Positions 22,839 to 25,969 of a stretch of DNA of 51,362 bases are shown piece by piece. The notes beneath the pieces were generated by a model, which saw only the letters and a program-made list of their open reading frames with translations, did no database searches and had not been told where the DNA came from. The position numbers and the translations under genes were made by a program. This DNA comes from DHVE2 group archaeon (GTDB taxonomy: Archaea > Thermoplasmatota > Thermoplasmata > Thermoplasmatales > Aciduliprofundaceae). The DNA lies in assembly GCA_015521465.1 (NCBI GenBank), contig WAOD01000053.1, positions 1-51,362 of the forward strand. Direction: 5' to 3'. Each line of letters begins with the position of its first letter. Within the stretch, counting starts at the first letter, position 1.

Positions 22839-22861
22839 TGACATCATAGTGATGTTTGTCA
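22839..22861. promoter_or_regulatory. Imperfect palindrome at the ftsZ promoter
   Basis: TGACATCA-tag-TGATGtttGTCA forms an inverted repeat with a small asymmetric bulge. It lies just downstream of a TATA-like TGTTTAAGTA and spans the predicted transcription start of ftsZ. The position suits a repressor operator. Confidence 0.3.
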
Positions 22862-22872
22862 GACAAATATGT

Positions 22873-22878
22873 GAGGTG
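22873..22878 (+). promoter_or_regulatory. Ribosome binding site of ftsZ
   Basis: GAGGTG seven nt before ATG 22886. It decides the start against the upstream TTG at 22856 used by the ORF track. Confidence 0.6.
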
Positions 22879-22885
22879 TTGTCAG

Positions 22886-23926
22886 ATGGGATGGGATAGT
22901 ATAATAAAAGAGGCCCTATCGGAAGGGCCAAAATATTCCAGTGATTTCAGGGTTAAAATAATTGGAGTTGGTGGAGGTGGAACCAACAGTATATACAGGC
23001 TTTCTAAGATGGGGATCAATGTGGACATGATTGCGATAAACACAGACGAGAGGCATATAATGTCTCTTGACCTGCCTAAGAAGGTAATTATTGGAAAGAA
23101 CATTACAAAGGGCAGTGGCCTTGGTGGCAACATGGGTTTGGGTGAGACCGTTGCAAGGCAAGCTTCCAAAGCCCTGTACAAGTTTGTGGACGGTGCGGAT
23201 CTCATATTTGTTCTTTCCGCTCTTGGTGGCGGCACCGGTGGCGGTGTTGGGCCCGTGGTGGCGGAACTTGCAAGGAAGTCAAAGGCTCTCGTGGTGTCCA
23301 TAGTTACCATGCCTTTCAAGGCAGAAGGTAAAAACAGGTGGAACAATGCTAAGATTGCCCTTGAGAAGTTTAGAGAAGTGTCCAATACTGTAGTGGTTCT
23401 TGATAACAACAGGCTATTGGAGTTCGCACCCAACATATCATTTTCCAAGGCGTTCATGGCTATGGATGTGTTGGTCGGTGATTTGATAAAAAATGTCGTG
23501 GAAACTGTTAATGAGCCATCTTTCATGAACATTGATTTCTCTGACCTGAGGACTGTGATGCACAAGGGTGGAACATCCACCGTTCTCTATGGTGAAGGAG
23601 AGTATTATTCCCCAGAGGATGCAGTGGTGGACGCTCTGAACAATCCTCTGATGGATATTGACTATCGTGGAGCCACAGGAGCTCTAATCCACATAACAGG
23701 TGGTCCAAATATGACTCTCAGGATGGTTTATAAGATTAGTGAGGGTATAACTGCCAACATAAGGGACGACGCGGAAGTAAAAATCGGTGCAAGAATAGAC
23801 GAGCGTTACAGGAACAAGATAAAAATCACGACGATTCTAACGGGCGTTCACACTCCTTATGTGCCGGAGAGAAGCTACCTGATGCAGGGTTCCAGTATGG
23901 GTTCCCTTCTACCTATGATTATGTGA
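22886..23926 (+). CDS. ftsZ: Cell division GTPase FtsZ
   Basis: Tubulin-fold GTPase that forms the division ring. The nucleotide motifs are VKIIGVGGGGTNSI near residue 25, the tubulin signature ALGGGTGGGVGP near 112 (last Ser replaced by Gly), and the T7-loop catalytic region MNIDFSDLRTVM near 215. The C-terminal domain ends near 330 with a short tail MQGSSMGSLLPMIM and lacks a long disordered linker. The 346-residue length is typical of archaeal FtsZ. The start is set by GAGGTG. Only one ftsZ is in the window; FtsZ1 or FtsZ2 type is not assigned. It stands alone, upstream of the ribosomal operon leader. Confidence 0.95.
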   Translation: MGWDSIIKEALSEGPKYSSDFRVKIIGVGGGGTNSIYRLSKMGINVDMIAINTDERHIMSLDLPKKVIIGKNITKGSGLGGNMGLGETVARQASKALYKFVDGADLIFVLSALGGGTGGGVGPVVAELARKSKALVVSIVTMPFKAEGKNRWNNAKIALEKFREVSNTVVVLDNNRLLEFAPNISFSKAFMAMDVLVGDLIKNVVETVNEPSFMNIDFSDLRTVMHKGGTSTVLYGEGEYYSPEDAVVDALNNPLMDIDYRGATGALIHITGGPNMTLRMVYKISEGITANIRDDAEVKIGARIDERYRNKIKITTILTGVHTPYVPERSYLMQGSSMGSLLPMIM

Positions 23927-24017
23927 TTTTTCACTTTTTTCACATCTATTTTTCCAGAAAAATTTATGATTTTTCGTTTTTTCTAATATTTCTTTAGGTT
24001 TTACACAATCCGAATTC

Positions 24018-24026
24018 TTTATATAG
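24018..24026 (+). promoter_or_regulatory. TATA box of the ribosomal super-operon
   Basis: TTTATATAG centred at about 24022. A start about 26 nt on (near 24048) would place the RNA 5' end directly before the closing stem of the structured leader. Confidence 0.55.
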
Positions 24027-24047: not shown

Positions 24048-24196
24048 AGATTAGCCAGACGCTCTGGGCAAACCCCTTGTATGGAATCCCAAAGCAGTAA
24101 CCCGCTGGGATCAGGGGTGCCCGCGTTCGGAGCCAAACGGTGATTTTGGTTCCGTGAGGAAGCGTCACGGCTAATAAGCGACGAGGTGAATCGAAA
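24048..24196 (+). ncRNA. Structured 5' leader of the rpl3 operon, candidate cis-regulatory RNA
   Basis: About 149 nt of untranslated RNA between the predicted start and the L3 ATG, G+C-rich against A/T-rich flanks. Pairings read by eye: closing stem TTAGCC (24051-56)/GGCTAA (24169-74). A long compound hairpin pairs ACGC/GCGT, GGGC/GCCC, ACCCCT/AGGGGT and ATCCCA/TGGGAT (24059-24126). A 10-bp hairpin pairs CGGAGCCAAA (24128-137) with TTTGGTTCCG (24145-154). A competing hairpin CCGTGA (24152-157)/TCACGG (24165-170) would break both the closing stem and the base of the 10-bp hairpin. GAGGTGA at 24183-24189 is the L3 ribosome binding site. The layout suggests a two-state regulator such as autogenous r-protein control; no known riboswitch class was recognised. 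Confidence 0.55.
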
Positions 24197-25204
24197 ATGG
24201 GAAGTGCACATCATCCGAGACGTGGCTCTATGGCGTATTATCCACGTAAAAGAGCAAAAAGTATTGTACCGAGGATACGAACGTGGCCCGAGATAGAGGA
24301 CGGTCCACGCATTCAGGGATTTGCAGGTTACAAGGCGGGAATGACGCATGTTCTGACTGTTGATTGGCGCAAGAAGAGCACCACTGCCGGGCAGGAAATA
24401 AGAACTCCCGTAACGGTTATAGAAGTTCCGCCCATGAAAGTGGCAGGTGTGCGTTTTTACATTAGGGATATGTATGGTCTTAAAAGTGCTGGAGAGGTGT
24501 GGGCTGAAAACCTGGATGAAGAGCTCAAAAGGCGTTTGCCCATGCCAAAGAAATCCCGTGGTAAAGCGCCTGCGGATTTTGATGAGGTTCGCGTAATTGC
24601 CTACACACAACCCAAGCTCGTCAGCGGTGTTCCCAAGAAAGTTCCCGACATAATGGAAATCAGAGTTGGTGGAGGCACTCTGGAAGAAAGGAAGAATTAC
24701 GCTATGGATCTTCTTGGCAAGGAAATAAAGTTTTCAGATTTCAGGGCGGATGGTAAATTTGTGGATGTCCTTGCAATCACGAAGGGCAAGGGTTTTCAGG
24801 GGCATATTAAAAGGTTTGGAGTAAAGCTTTTGAATCACAAAAATAGTAAACACAGGCGCATGATAGGGACATTGGGGCCATGGCATCCTGACTGGGTTAG
24901 GTATACTGTACCACAGGCCGGTCAAACGGGTTATCATCAGAGAACGGAGTACAACAAAAGGGTAATCAAATTTGTTGATTTTGTGGATGAAAATGGAGAG
25001 AAAAAGTTGGCTATGGATGTAAATCCTGAAGGCGGCTTTTTGCATTATGGTGAAATTAGAAATCCTTATGTTCTCGTGCATGGTTCTGTCCCCGGTCCAG
25101 CAAAGCGTCTTGTTAAGTTCCGAGATCCTGTAAGGCAGGTTTTGGATGACGTTGATGGTGTAGAAGTTGTTCACATTTCCAGAGAATCCAAGCAGGGGGT
25201 GTGA
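24197..25204 (+). CDS. rpl3: Ribosomal protein uL3
   Basis: First gene of the ribosomal super-operon; binds 23S rRNA early in 50S assembly. 335 residues in the archaeal long form, starting GSAHHPRRGSMAYYPRKRA, with GFAGYKAGMTHV, the KGKGFQGHIKRFGV central loop and GHQ-like QAGQTGYHQRTEYNKR. GAGGTGA 7 nt before the ATG fixes the start. It is preceded by the structured leader described separately and followed 3 nt later by rpl4. Confidence 0.97.
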   Translation: MGSAHHPRRGSMAYYPRKRAKSIVPRIRTWPEIEDGPRIQGFAGYKAGMTHVLTVDWRKKSTTAGQEIRTPVTVIEVPPMKVAGVRFYIRDMYGLKSAGEVWAENLDEELKRRLPMPKKSRGKAPADFDEVRVIAYTQPKLVSGVPKKVPDIMEIRVGGGTLEERKNYAMDLLGKEIKFSDFRADGKFVDVLAITKGKGFQGHIKRFGVKLLNHKNSKHRRMIGTLGPWHPDWVRYTVPQAGQTGYHQRTEYNKRVIKFVDFVDENGEKKLAMDVNPEGGFLHYGEIRNPYVLVHGSVPGPAKRLVKFRDPVRQVLDDVDGVEVVHISRESKQGV

Positions 25205-25207
25205 TAA

Positions 25208-25969
25208 ATGAAAGTTAATGTGTACACACTGGAAGGCGGTGTCAAGGGACAGGTGGACCTTCCCAAGTTCTTTGAGTATCCTTACCGGCCAGACTTAATA
25301 AAGAGAGCTGTAAGGGTATTTCAGCTAAATAGAGTCCAACCCCATGGCGTTAAGTATCGTGCGGGGATGAAAGTTGCGGAGTCTTGGGGGCCCGGGCGTG
25401 GGGCATCCAAGATGGTTCCCAGGATAGGGGAGTCTTCCCGCGGTGGAAATATTCCAAATACTCGTGGTGGTAGGGCTGGACATCCTCCTACAACTAAAAA
25501 GGTTTGGAAGAGGGATATAAACAAGAAGGAGCGGCGCCTTGCAAAGTATTCTGCTTTGAGTGCCACAGCAAATAAGGCAATGGTTGTTGCTCGCGGTCAC
25601 AAGTTTAACGTTGAGCTTACTTTGCCTGTTGTCGTGGAGGATAGGTTTGAGGAAATAAGCAAGGTCAAAGATGCAATAGAAGTCCTGAAAAAACTTGGTG
25701 TTTACGATGATATTGTCCGTGCCAGTGTAAAACGTGTGCGCGCAGGTCACGGGAAGATGAGAGGTAGGAGATATAAGAAGAAAAAGAGCCTGTTGATTGT
25801 TGTCAACAATAAAGACAATGTGCTTAAGGGCTTCAAAAATCTTCCGGGTGTTGATGTCGTGAGGGCATCGGAACTGAACGCTGAAATTCTTGCGCCTGGG
25901 ACGCATGCGGGGAGATTAGCAATATTTACTGAAGGTGCTATCGAACAGGTTAGGGGGTGGAAAGAATGA
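25208..25969 (+). CDS. rpl4: Ribosomal protein uL4
   Basis: 253 residues, archaeal/eukaryotic type (L4/L1e). The long internal loop that reaches the exit tunnel is visible as GPGRGASKMVPRIGESSRGG with GRAGHPPTTKKVW. The C-terminal part has RGRRYKKKKSLLIVV-like sequence and LNAEILAPGTHAGRLAIFTEGAI. Its stop overlaps the L23 ATG by 4 nt. L4 is a known autogenous regulator in bacteria, which makes it one candidate ligand for the leader, but that is only inference here. Confidence 0.96.
   Translation: MKVNVYTLEGGVKGQVDLPKFFEYPYRPDLIKRAVRVFQLNRVQPHGVKYRAGMKVAESWGPGRGASKMVPRIGESSRGGNIPNTRGGRAGHPPTTKKVWKRDINKKERRLAKYSALSATANKAMVVARGHKFNVELTLPVVVEDRFEEISKVKDAIEVLKKLGVYDDIVRASVKRVRAGHGKMRGRRYKKKKSLLIVVNNKDNVLKGFKNLPGVDVVRASELNAEILAPGTHAGRLAIFTEGAIEQVRGWKE

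Follow-up and report, generated by a model that had tools for sequence, protein, structure and literature searches.

A conserved RNA leader upstream of the rpl3 operon in Thermoplasmatota and its probable role in ribosomal-protein regulation

The rpl3 locus of the DHVE2 contig

The leader of the rpl3 ribosomal-protein operon was analyzed in a DHVE2 group archaeon of the Thermoplasmatota. The window, that is, the whole stretch of DNA analyzed, was 51,362 nucleotides of contig WAOD01000053.1 (GenBank assembly GCA_015521465.1). The operon order L3-L4-L23-L2-S19-L22-S3 was identical in 20 of 20 families sampled (in one, rps3 lay beyond the sequence compared). An FtsZ/tubulin-like reading frame with a GGGTGGG motif (22856-23926, + strand) lay directly upstream of the operon promoter. 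The promoter, the leader and its parts are given in Table 1.

Table 1. Features of the rpl3 leader region in the DHVE2 contig
Feature	Position	Strand	Basis or remark
Possible BRE CCGAATTC	24010-24017	+	adjoins TATA box on 5′ side
TATA box TTTATATA	24018-24025	+	sequence reading
Untranslated leader of rpl3 operon	24048-24196	+	TATA box to rpl3
Structured leader element, three-way junction	24048-24175	+	model R2 match, covariation
P1a 5′ strand AUUAGCC (7 bp, partner 24169-24175)	24050-24056	+	fold, covariation
Unpaired A, P1 internal loop	24057	+	invariant in 58/58 leaders
P1b 5′ strand GACGCU (6 bp, partner 24161-24166)	24058-24063	+	fold, covariation
P2 compound arm	24066-24122	+	sequence, fold, covariation
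P2 base GGGC/GCCC	24066-24069/24119-24122	+	
P2 AAA/U internal loop, between base and upper helix		+	
P2 upper helix	24073-24076/24114-24117	+	
P3 hairpin, 10 bp with one G-U (24128-24137/24145-24154)	24128-24154	+	fold, covariation
P1b 3′ strand AGCGUC	24161-24166	+	fold, covariation
Unpaired AC, P1 internal loop	24167-24168	+	invariant in 58/58 leaders
P1a 3′ strand GGCUAAU	24169-24175	+	fold, covariation
Shine-Dalgarno GAGGUGA of rpl3	24183-24189	+	sequence; conserved in family f1
rpl3 (uL3), first operon gene	24197-25204	+	
rpl4 (uL4), second operon gene	25208-25969	+	candidate ligand

The leader folded with an energy of -57.3 kcal/mol (z -2.84), and 2 of 200 shuffled sequences were equally good. 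The fold was a three-way junction of P1, which carries an A/AC internal loop within CC/GG, P2, and a variable hairpin P3. The closing stem of P1 ran on past a one-base loop into the 6-bp helix P1b. The apical extension of P2 was long in the DHVE2 leader and some congeners, and P3 varied in sequence and length among relatives. The closing stem (here 7 bp), the compound arm and the 10-bp hairpin with one G-U pair reported in a preliminary description of this DNA were all present in the fold. The Shine-Dalgarno (SD) sequence, which began 7 nt downstream of the closing stem, was mostly unpaired in the predicted ensemble.

The preliminary description had also proposed a switch, based on a mutually exclusive hairpin, CCGTGA/TCACGG. 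Both arms exist in the DHVE2 sequence (24152-24157/24165-24170) and in one close relative. Forcing this hairpin gave -49.3 kcal/mol instead of -57.3 kcal/mol, a cost of 8 kcal/mol, and its pair probabilities were no higher than 0.02. A 6-bp partner for the arm was present in 9 of 58 leaders (rough chance estimate, about 10%). The hairpin was energetically unfavorable and not conserved, and the probability that the leader is this switch is close to nil. The pairing of TCAC with the SD, claimed in the same description, was not general: the SD was GGAGGA in family f4 and GUGUAACGG in family f6, and the leaders of both families were without a matching sequence.

Distribution and covariation in Thermoplasmatota

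The upstream regions of relatives were gathered by rpl3 protein searches, and two covariance models, R1 and R2, were built from 6 and 32 sequences, respectively. R1 matched 44 of 117 genomes of the order, with one match each. R2 matched 232 of 390 Thermoplasmatota genomes, again with one match each except for one genome with two, and scored the DHVE2 element at 73 bits (2.2e-14). Among the listed R2 matches, the element was on the same contig and strand as rpl3 and 7-93 nt upstream of it in 92 of 93 comparable genomes; the single exception was a match at a contig edge. R2 matched none of the 197 genomes of the control phylum, Halobacteriota.

With looser filters, the element was found in 9 of 40 previously negative genomes (one further match, with an E value of 0.95, was not counted). 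The number 232 is a lower bound because more diverged leaders were visible by eye in several R2-negative families. The phylum-wide spread probably includes Aciduliprofundum-, Thermoplasma-, Methanomassiliicoccales- and marine-group-like genomes (inferred names). In the genomes examined of families f7, f24, f47 and f54 (L110, L116, L267 and L270-L273), no leader was visible, and the UTR between the TATA box and rpl3 was short. These natural losses can be used as controls.

The Rfam scan gave no credible family for the leader and none at E values up to 10 in the window. For the leaders of 20 relatives, no match was obtained at E values up to 5. A search of Rfam had been named as a check in the preliminary description, and no unrelated known RNA was matched. 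No earlier report for Thermoplasmatota was found in the open-access papers searched, a set without subscription papers and supplements. From these comparisons, the leader looks like a previously undescribed element conserved over most of the Thermoplasmatota.

Covariation was calculated in two alignments that were fitted to the model and are biased towards it. In 58 diverse leaders from across the phylum, 90% of cells paired; double changes numbered 442 (shuffled, 133; slid, no more than 104), and the covariation score was 0.614 (shuffled, 0.174; slid, no more than 0.107). In 27 distinct leaders, 91% of cells paired, and double changes numbered 143 (shuffled, 45; slid, no more than 38). An independent check came from 19 leaders aligned by sequence alone with MAFFT; it recovered P1a, P1b, the loop between them and P2, with double changes in 10 of 16 pairs. 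P3 was too variable for such an alignment. The compensatory substitutions that the preliminary description had named as a check were thus abundant. The substitution patterns indicate that the secondary structure of the leader is far beyond chance.

The unpaired A on the 5′ side and AC on the 3′ side were present in every one of the 58 leaders, and the enclosing CC/GG in 57-58 of them; part of the A/AC invariance is due to selection, because the model itself was used to choose these leaders. The diverged leaders found by eye mostly kept the same unpaired loop bases. The pair beside the loop was G-C or U-A among the aligned leaders, and A-U was seen by eye in other lineages. The pattern of the DHVE2 family was TTAGCCAGACGCC-(GGGC..GCCC)-hairpin-GGCGTCACGGCTAA-SD, and other families retained CCA(G/U)AC and GU(C/A)ACGG with compensating changes. 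P2 was GGG-CAA-UGC..GCA-A-CCC in many lineages.

The leader of family f3 (L103-L105) was diverged: it lacked the two pairs next to the A/AC loop (CCACACG..CGCAACGG), which enlarged the internal loop, and it retained the arms as well as CC and ACGG on either side.

Promoter, spacing and proposed function

Of 57 leaders, 44 were preceded at the expected position by a TATA-like box with at most one mismatch; shuffles gave 4. Where the box was present, the median gap between it and the leader was 27.5 nt. Transcription is therefore predicted to start near the 5′ edge of the leader. The start near 24048, and not near the ATG, that was suggested in the preliminary description agreed with the position of the TATA box, and its view of an untranslated, structured leader of the rpl3 operon was supported by the fold and the covariation.

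A promoter of its own at the 5′ edge would also suit an independent small RNA, or a precursor of one, that is transcribed from the rpl3 promoter and released from the mRNA by cleavage. The element was always directly upstream of rpl3, no known stand-alone RNA was matched, and the start codon was just 7-20 nt away in families f1 and f6, all of which makes such an RNA very unlikely.

The leader stood 7-14 nt from the start codon in family f6, 13-20 nt in family f1 and, in the majority of the remaining families, about 46-80 nt. Lineages may therefore differ in the output step, and direct blocking of the SD cannot be the sole output because the spacing spans 7-93 nt. The interval between leader and gene held, just before rpl3, two hairpins that exclude each other, GAGAG..CUCUC and CUCUC..GAGAGG, in families f9, f10, f11 and f19 (L063, L068, L069, L071, L073, L077, L078, L081 and L083). 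The 3′ arm of the second hairpin contained or abutted the SD. This bistable pair may be a candidate expression platform.

The element is probably an r-leader, bound by a ribosomal protein of its operon and repressing translation. This reading is based on the invariant unpaired core, the single copy per genome and the constant linkage to the ribosomal-protein operon. In the proposed mechanism, the 5′-UTR of the rpl3-operon mRNA would fold into the three-way junction, in which P1 and P2 would each offer one conserved, presumed contact site (the A/AC internal loop and the CAA/A loop, respectively). The operon ribosomal protein would bind the leader when it exceeds free 23S rRNA. Bound beside the rpl3 SD, it would block 30S loading, and the synthesis of the whole operon would fall. 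The invariant unpaired bases would fit a ligand site, as expected for such a leader. Three further points count against this reading: the SD was mostly open in the predicted fold, some lineages were without a leader, and no imitation of a 23S site was seen.

A constitutive 5′-UTR structure, which would protect, process or stabilize the operon mRNA or aid its translation without sensing, would agree with the very stable fold, the open SD in the predicted ensemble and the variable distance to the start codon. However, the invariant loop bases deep inside the molecule exceed the needs of stability, and several lineages have no leader; this explanation is given a small chance. A metabolite or ion riboswitch tuning ribosomal-protein output to the nutrient state was also considered, as aptamers, too, typically combine a compact junction with unpaired bases that do not vary. 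The single copy in each genome, its exclusive placement upstream of rpl3 and the lack of any Rfam riboswitch match make such a sensor unlikely. The preliminary description had left the choice between a ribosomal-protein and a metabolite sensor for the whole operon. The part that stands is a probable regulator sensing a ribosomal protein.

L4 is tentatively favored as the ligand of the r-leader because of the precedent of the bacterial S10 leader and the predicted Archaeoglobi leader. L3, considered because its gene is adjacent to the leader, is a possible but less probable ligand, and the same applies to another protein. Gene order was uninformative and cannot name the ligand because it was constant in all 20 families sampled. 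Imitation of an rRNA site, which is frequent and not obligatory in r-leaders, was rejected for 23S by model and motif scans. R1 gave a best E value of 0.16 on 23S, with a fragmentary match, and CCA(G/U)AC..GUNACGG was absent from 23S. The number of 9-mers common to the leader and 23S was about that of chance. These scans covered 23S; 16S was not found in the DHVE2 assembly.

A single-copy, phylum-wide leader makes archaeal ribosomal-protein feedback directly testable: its invariant bases can be mutated, and its natural losses can serve as controls.

Comparison with known leaders

The S10 leader of Escherichia coli belongs to the equivalent ribosomal-protein operon, its ligand is L4, and its mechanism includes transcription attenuation. 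The Thermoplasmatota leader likewise heads the equivalent operon, and L4 is a candidate ligand for it. In contrast, its sequence was unrelated, with no Rfam match in the Thermoplasmatota leaders, and nothing of the kind of the E. coli attenuation was seen.

Few archaeal cis-regulatory RNAs have been confirmed, or even predicted (PMC7247131). The archaeal S15 and eL15 r-leaders lie before ribosomal-protein genes and are supported by covariation (PMC7247131), as is the leader described here. They belong to other genes and lineages, and the Thermoplasmatota leaders were without any Rfam match.

The L4-Archaeoglobi leader (Rfam RF03135; Eckert and Weinberg 2020) was predicted before rplC-rplD and rated borderline (PMC7247131). 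It precedes the same rpl3-rpl4-rpl23-rpl2 operon, and the DHVE2 leader stands upstream of rplC-rplD-rplW-rplB, the arrangement of the RF03135 definition. The new leader permits a comparison with RF03135 before the same operon in another phylum. Compared by eye, the two look similar: P1 is broken by a small internal loop and followed by a three-way junction with a long hairpin P3. P2 of RF03135, likewise similar, opens with GGGYCAAU (GGGUCAAU) and has an asymmetric loop. The P1 loops differ: A/AC inside 5′CC/3′GG in Thermoplasmatota, and, in our reading, an AA or GA bulge beside 5′GG/3′CC in RF03135. The RF03135 model matched none of 194 Thermoplasmatota genomes over the gathering threshold and had no match in the window at E values up to 10. 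By score, the Thermoplasmatota leader fails as a member of RF03135 in both directions (R2, 0/197 Halobacteriota).

Of 197 Halobacteriota genomes, RF03135 matched 117 at E values up to 0.01, and 104 of these exceeded the cut-off, so that its range extends beyond Archaeoglobi (loci L202-L231, e.g. L202:1501-1600). The match in the haloarchaea examined was about 510 nt upstream of rpl3 and within an upstream coding frame, unlike the Thermoplasmatota leader. In two haloarchaeal loci that were translated, the match overlapped a long frame upstream of rpl3, ..GRVRVNCGMQHPISL.., which is perhaps an RNA methyltransferase. Either this stretch has a dual function, or the conservation of a coding sequence has been taken for that of an RNA.

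A further element, absent from the Rfam listing, was found upstream of rpl3 in Methanosarcinaceae, with P2 GGGCCAAUUC..GAAUGCCCG and a hairpin P3. It was 214-346 nt before rpl3 in L138, L144, L149-L152, L155 and L157-L159, and 142-149 nt before it in L163 and L165. Methanoperedens-like loci had the variant GGGCCAAUGCG.. of this element. In L155 it was outside any long reading frame, and it had no Rfam match in the loci scanned. It resembled the Thermoplasmatota leader in P2, in hairpin P3 and in its place upstream of rpl3, but had another closing stem, no CCA..ACGG core and 214-346 nt to the start codon. R2 matched it weakly, with 27 bits at best. Five weak R2 matches were obtained in 39 Halobacteriota rpl3 loci, and four of the five, in closely related loci, were at this element.

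The Thermoplasmatota leader, RF03135 and the Methanosarcinaceae element could share one rpl3-operon leader ancestor that predates the split of the phyla, a descent held at somewhat below even confidence. If true, this would be a deeply conserved autoregulatory RNA in which the P2 contact site was kept and P1 diverged.
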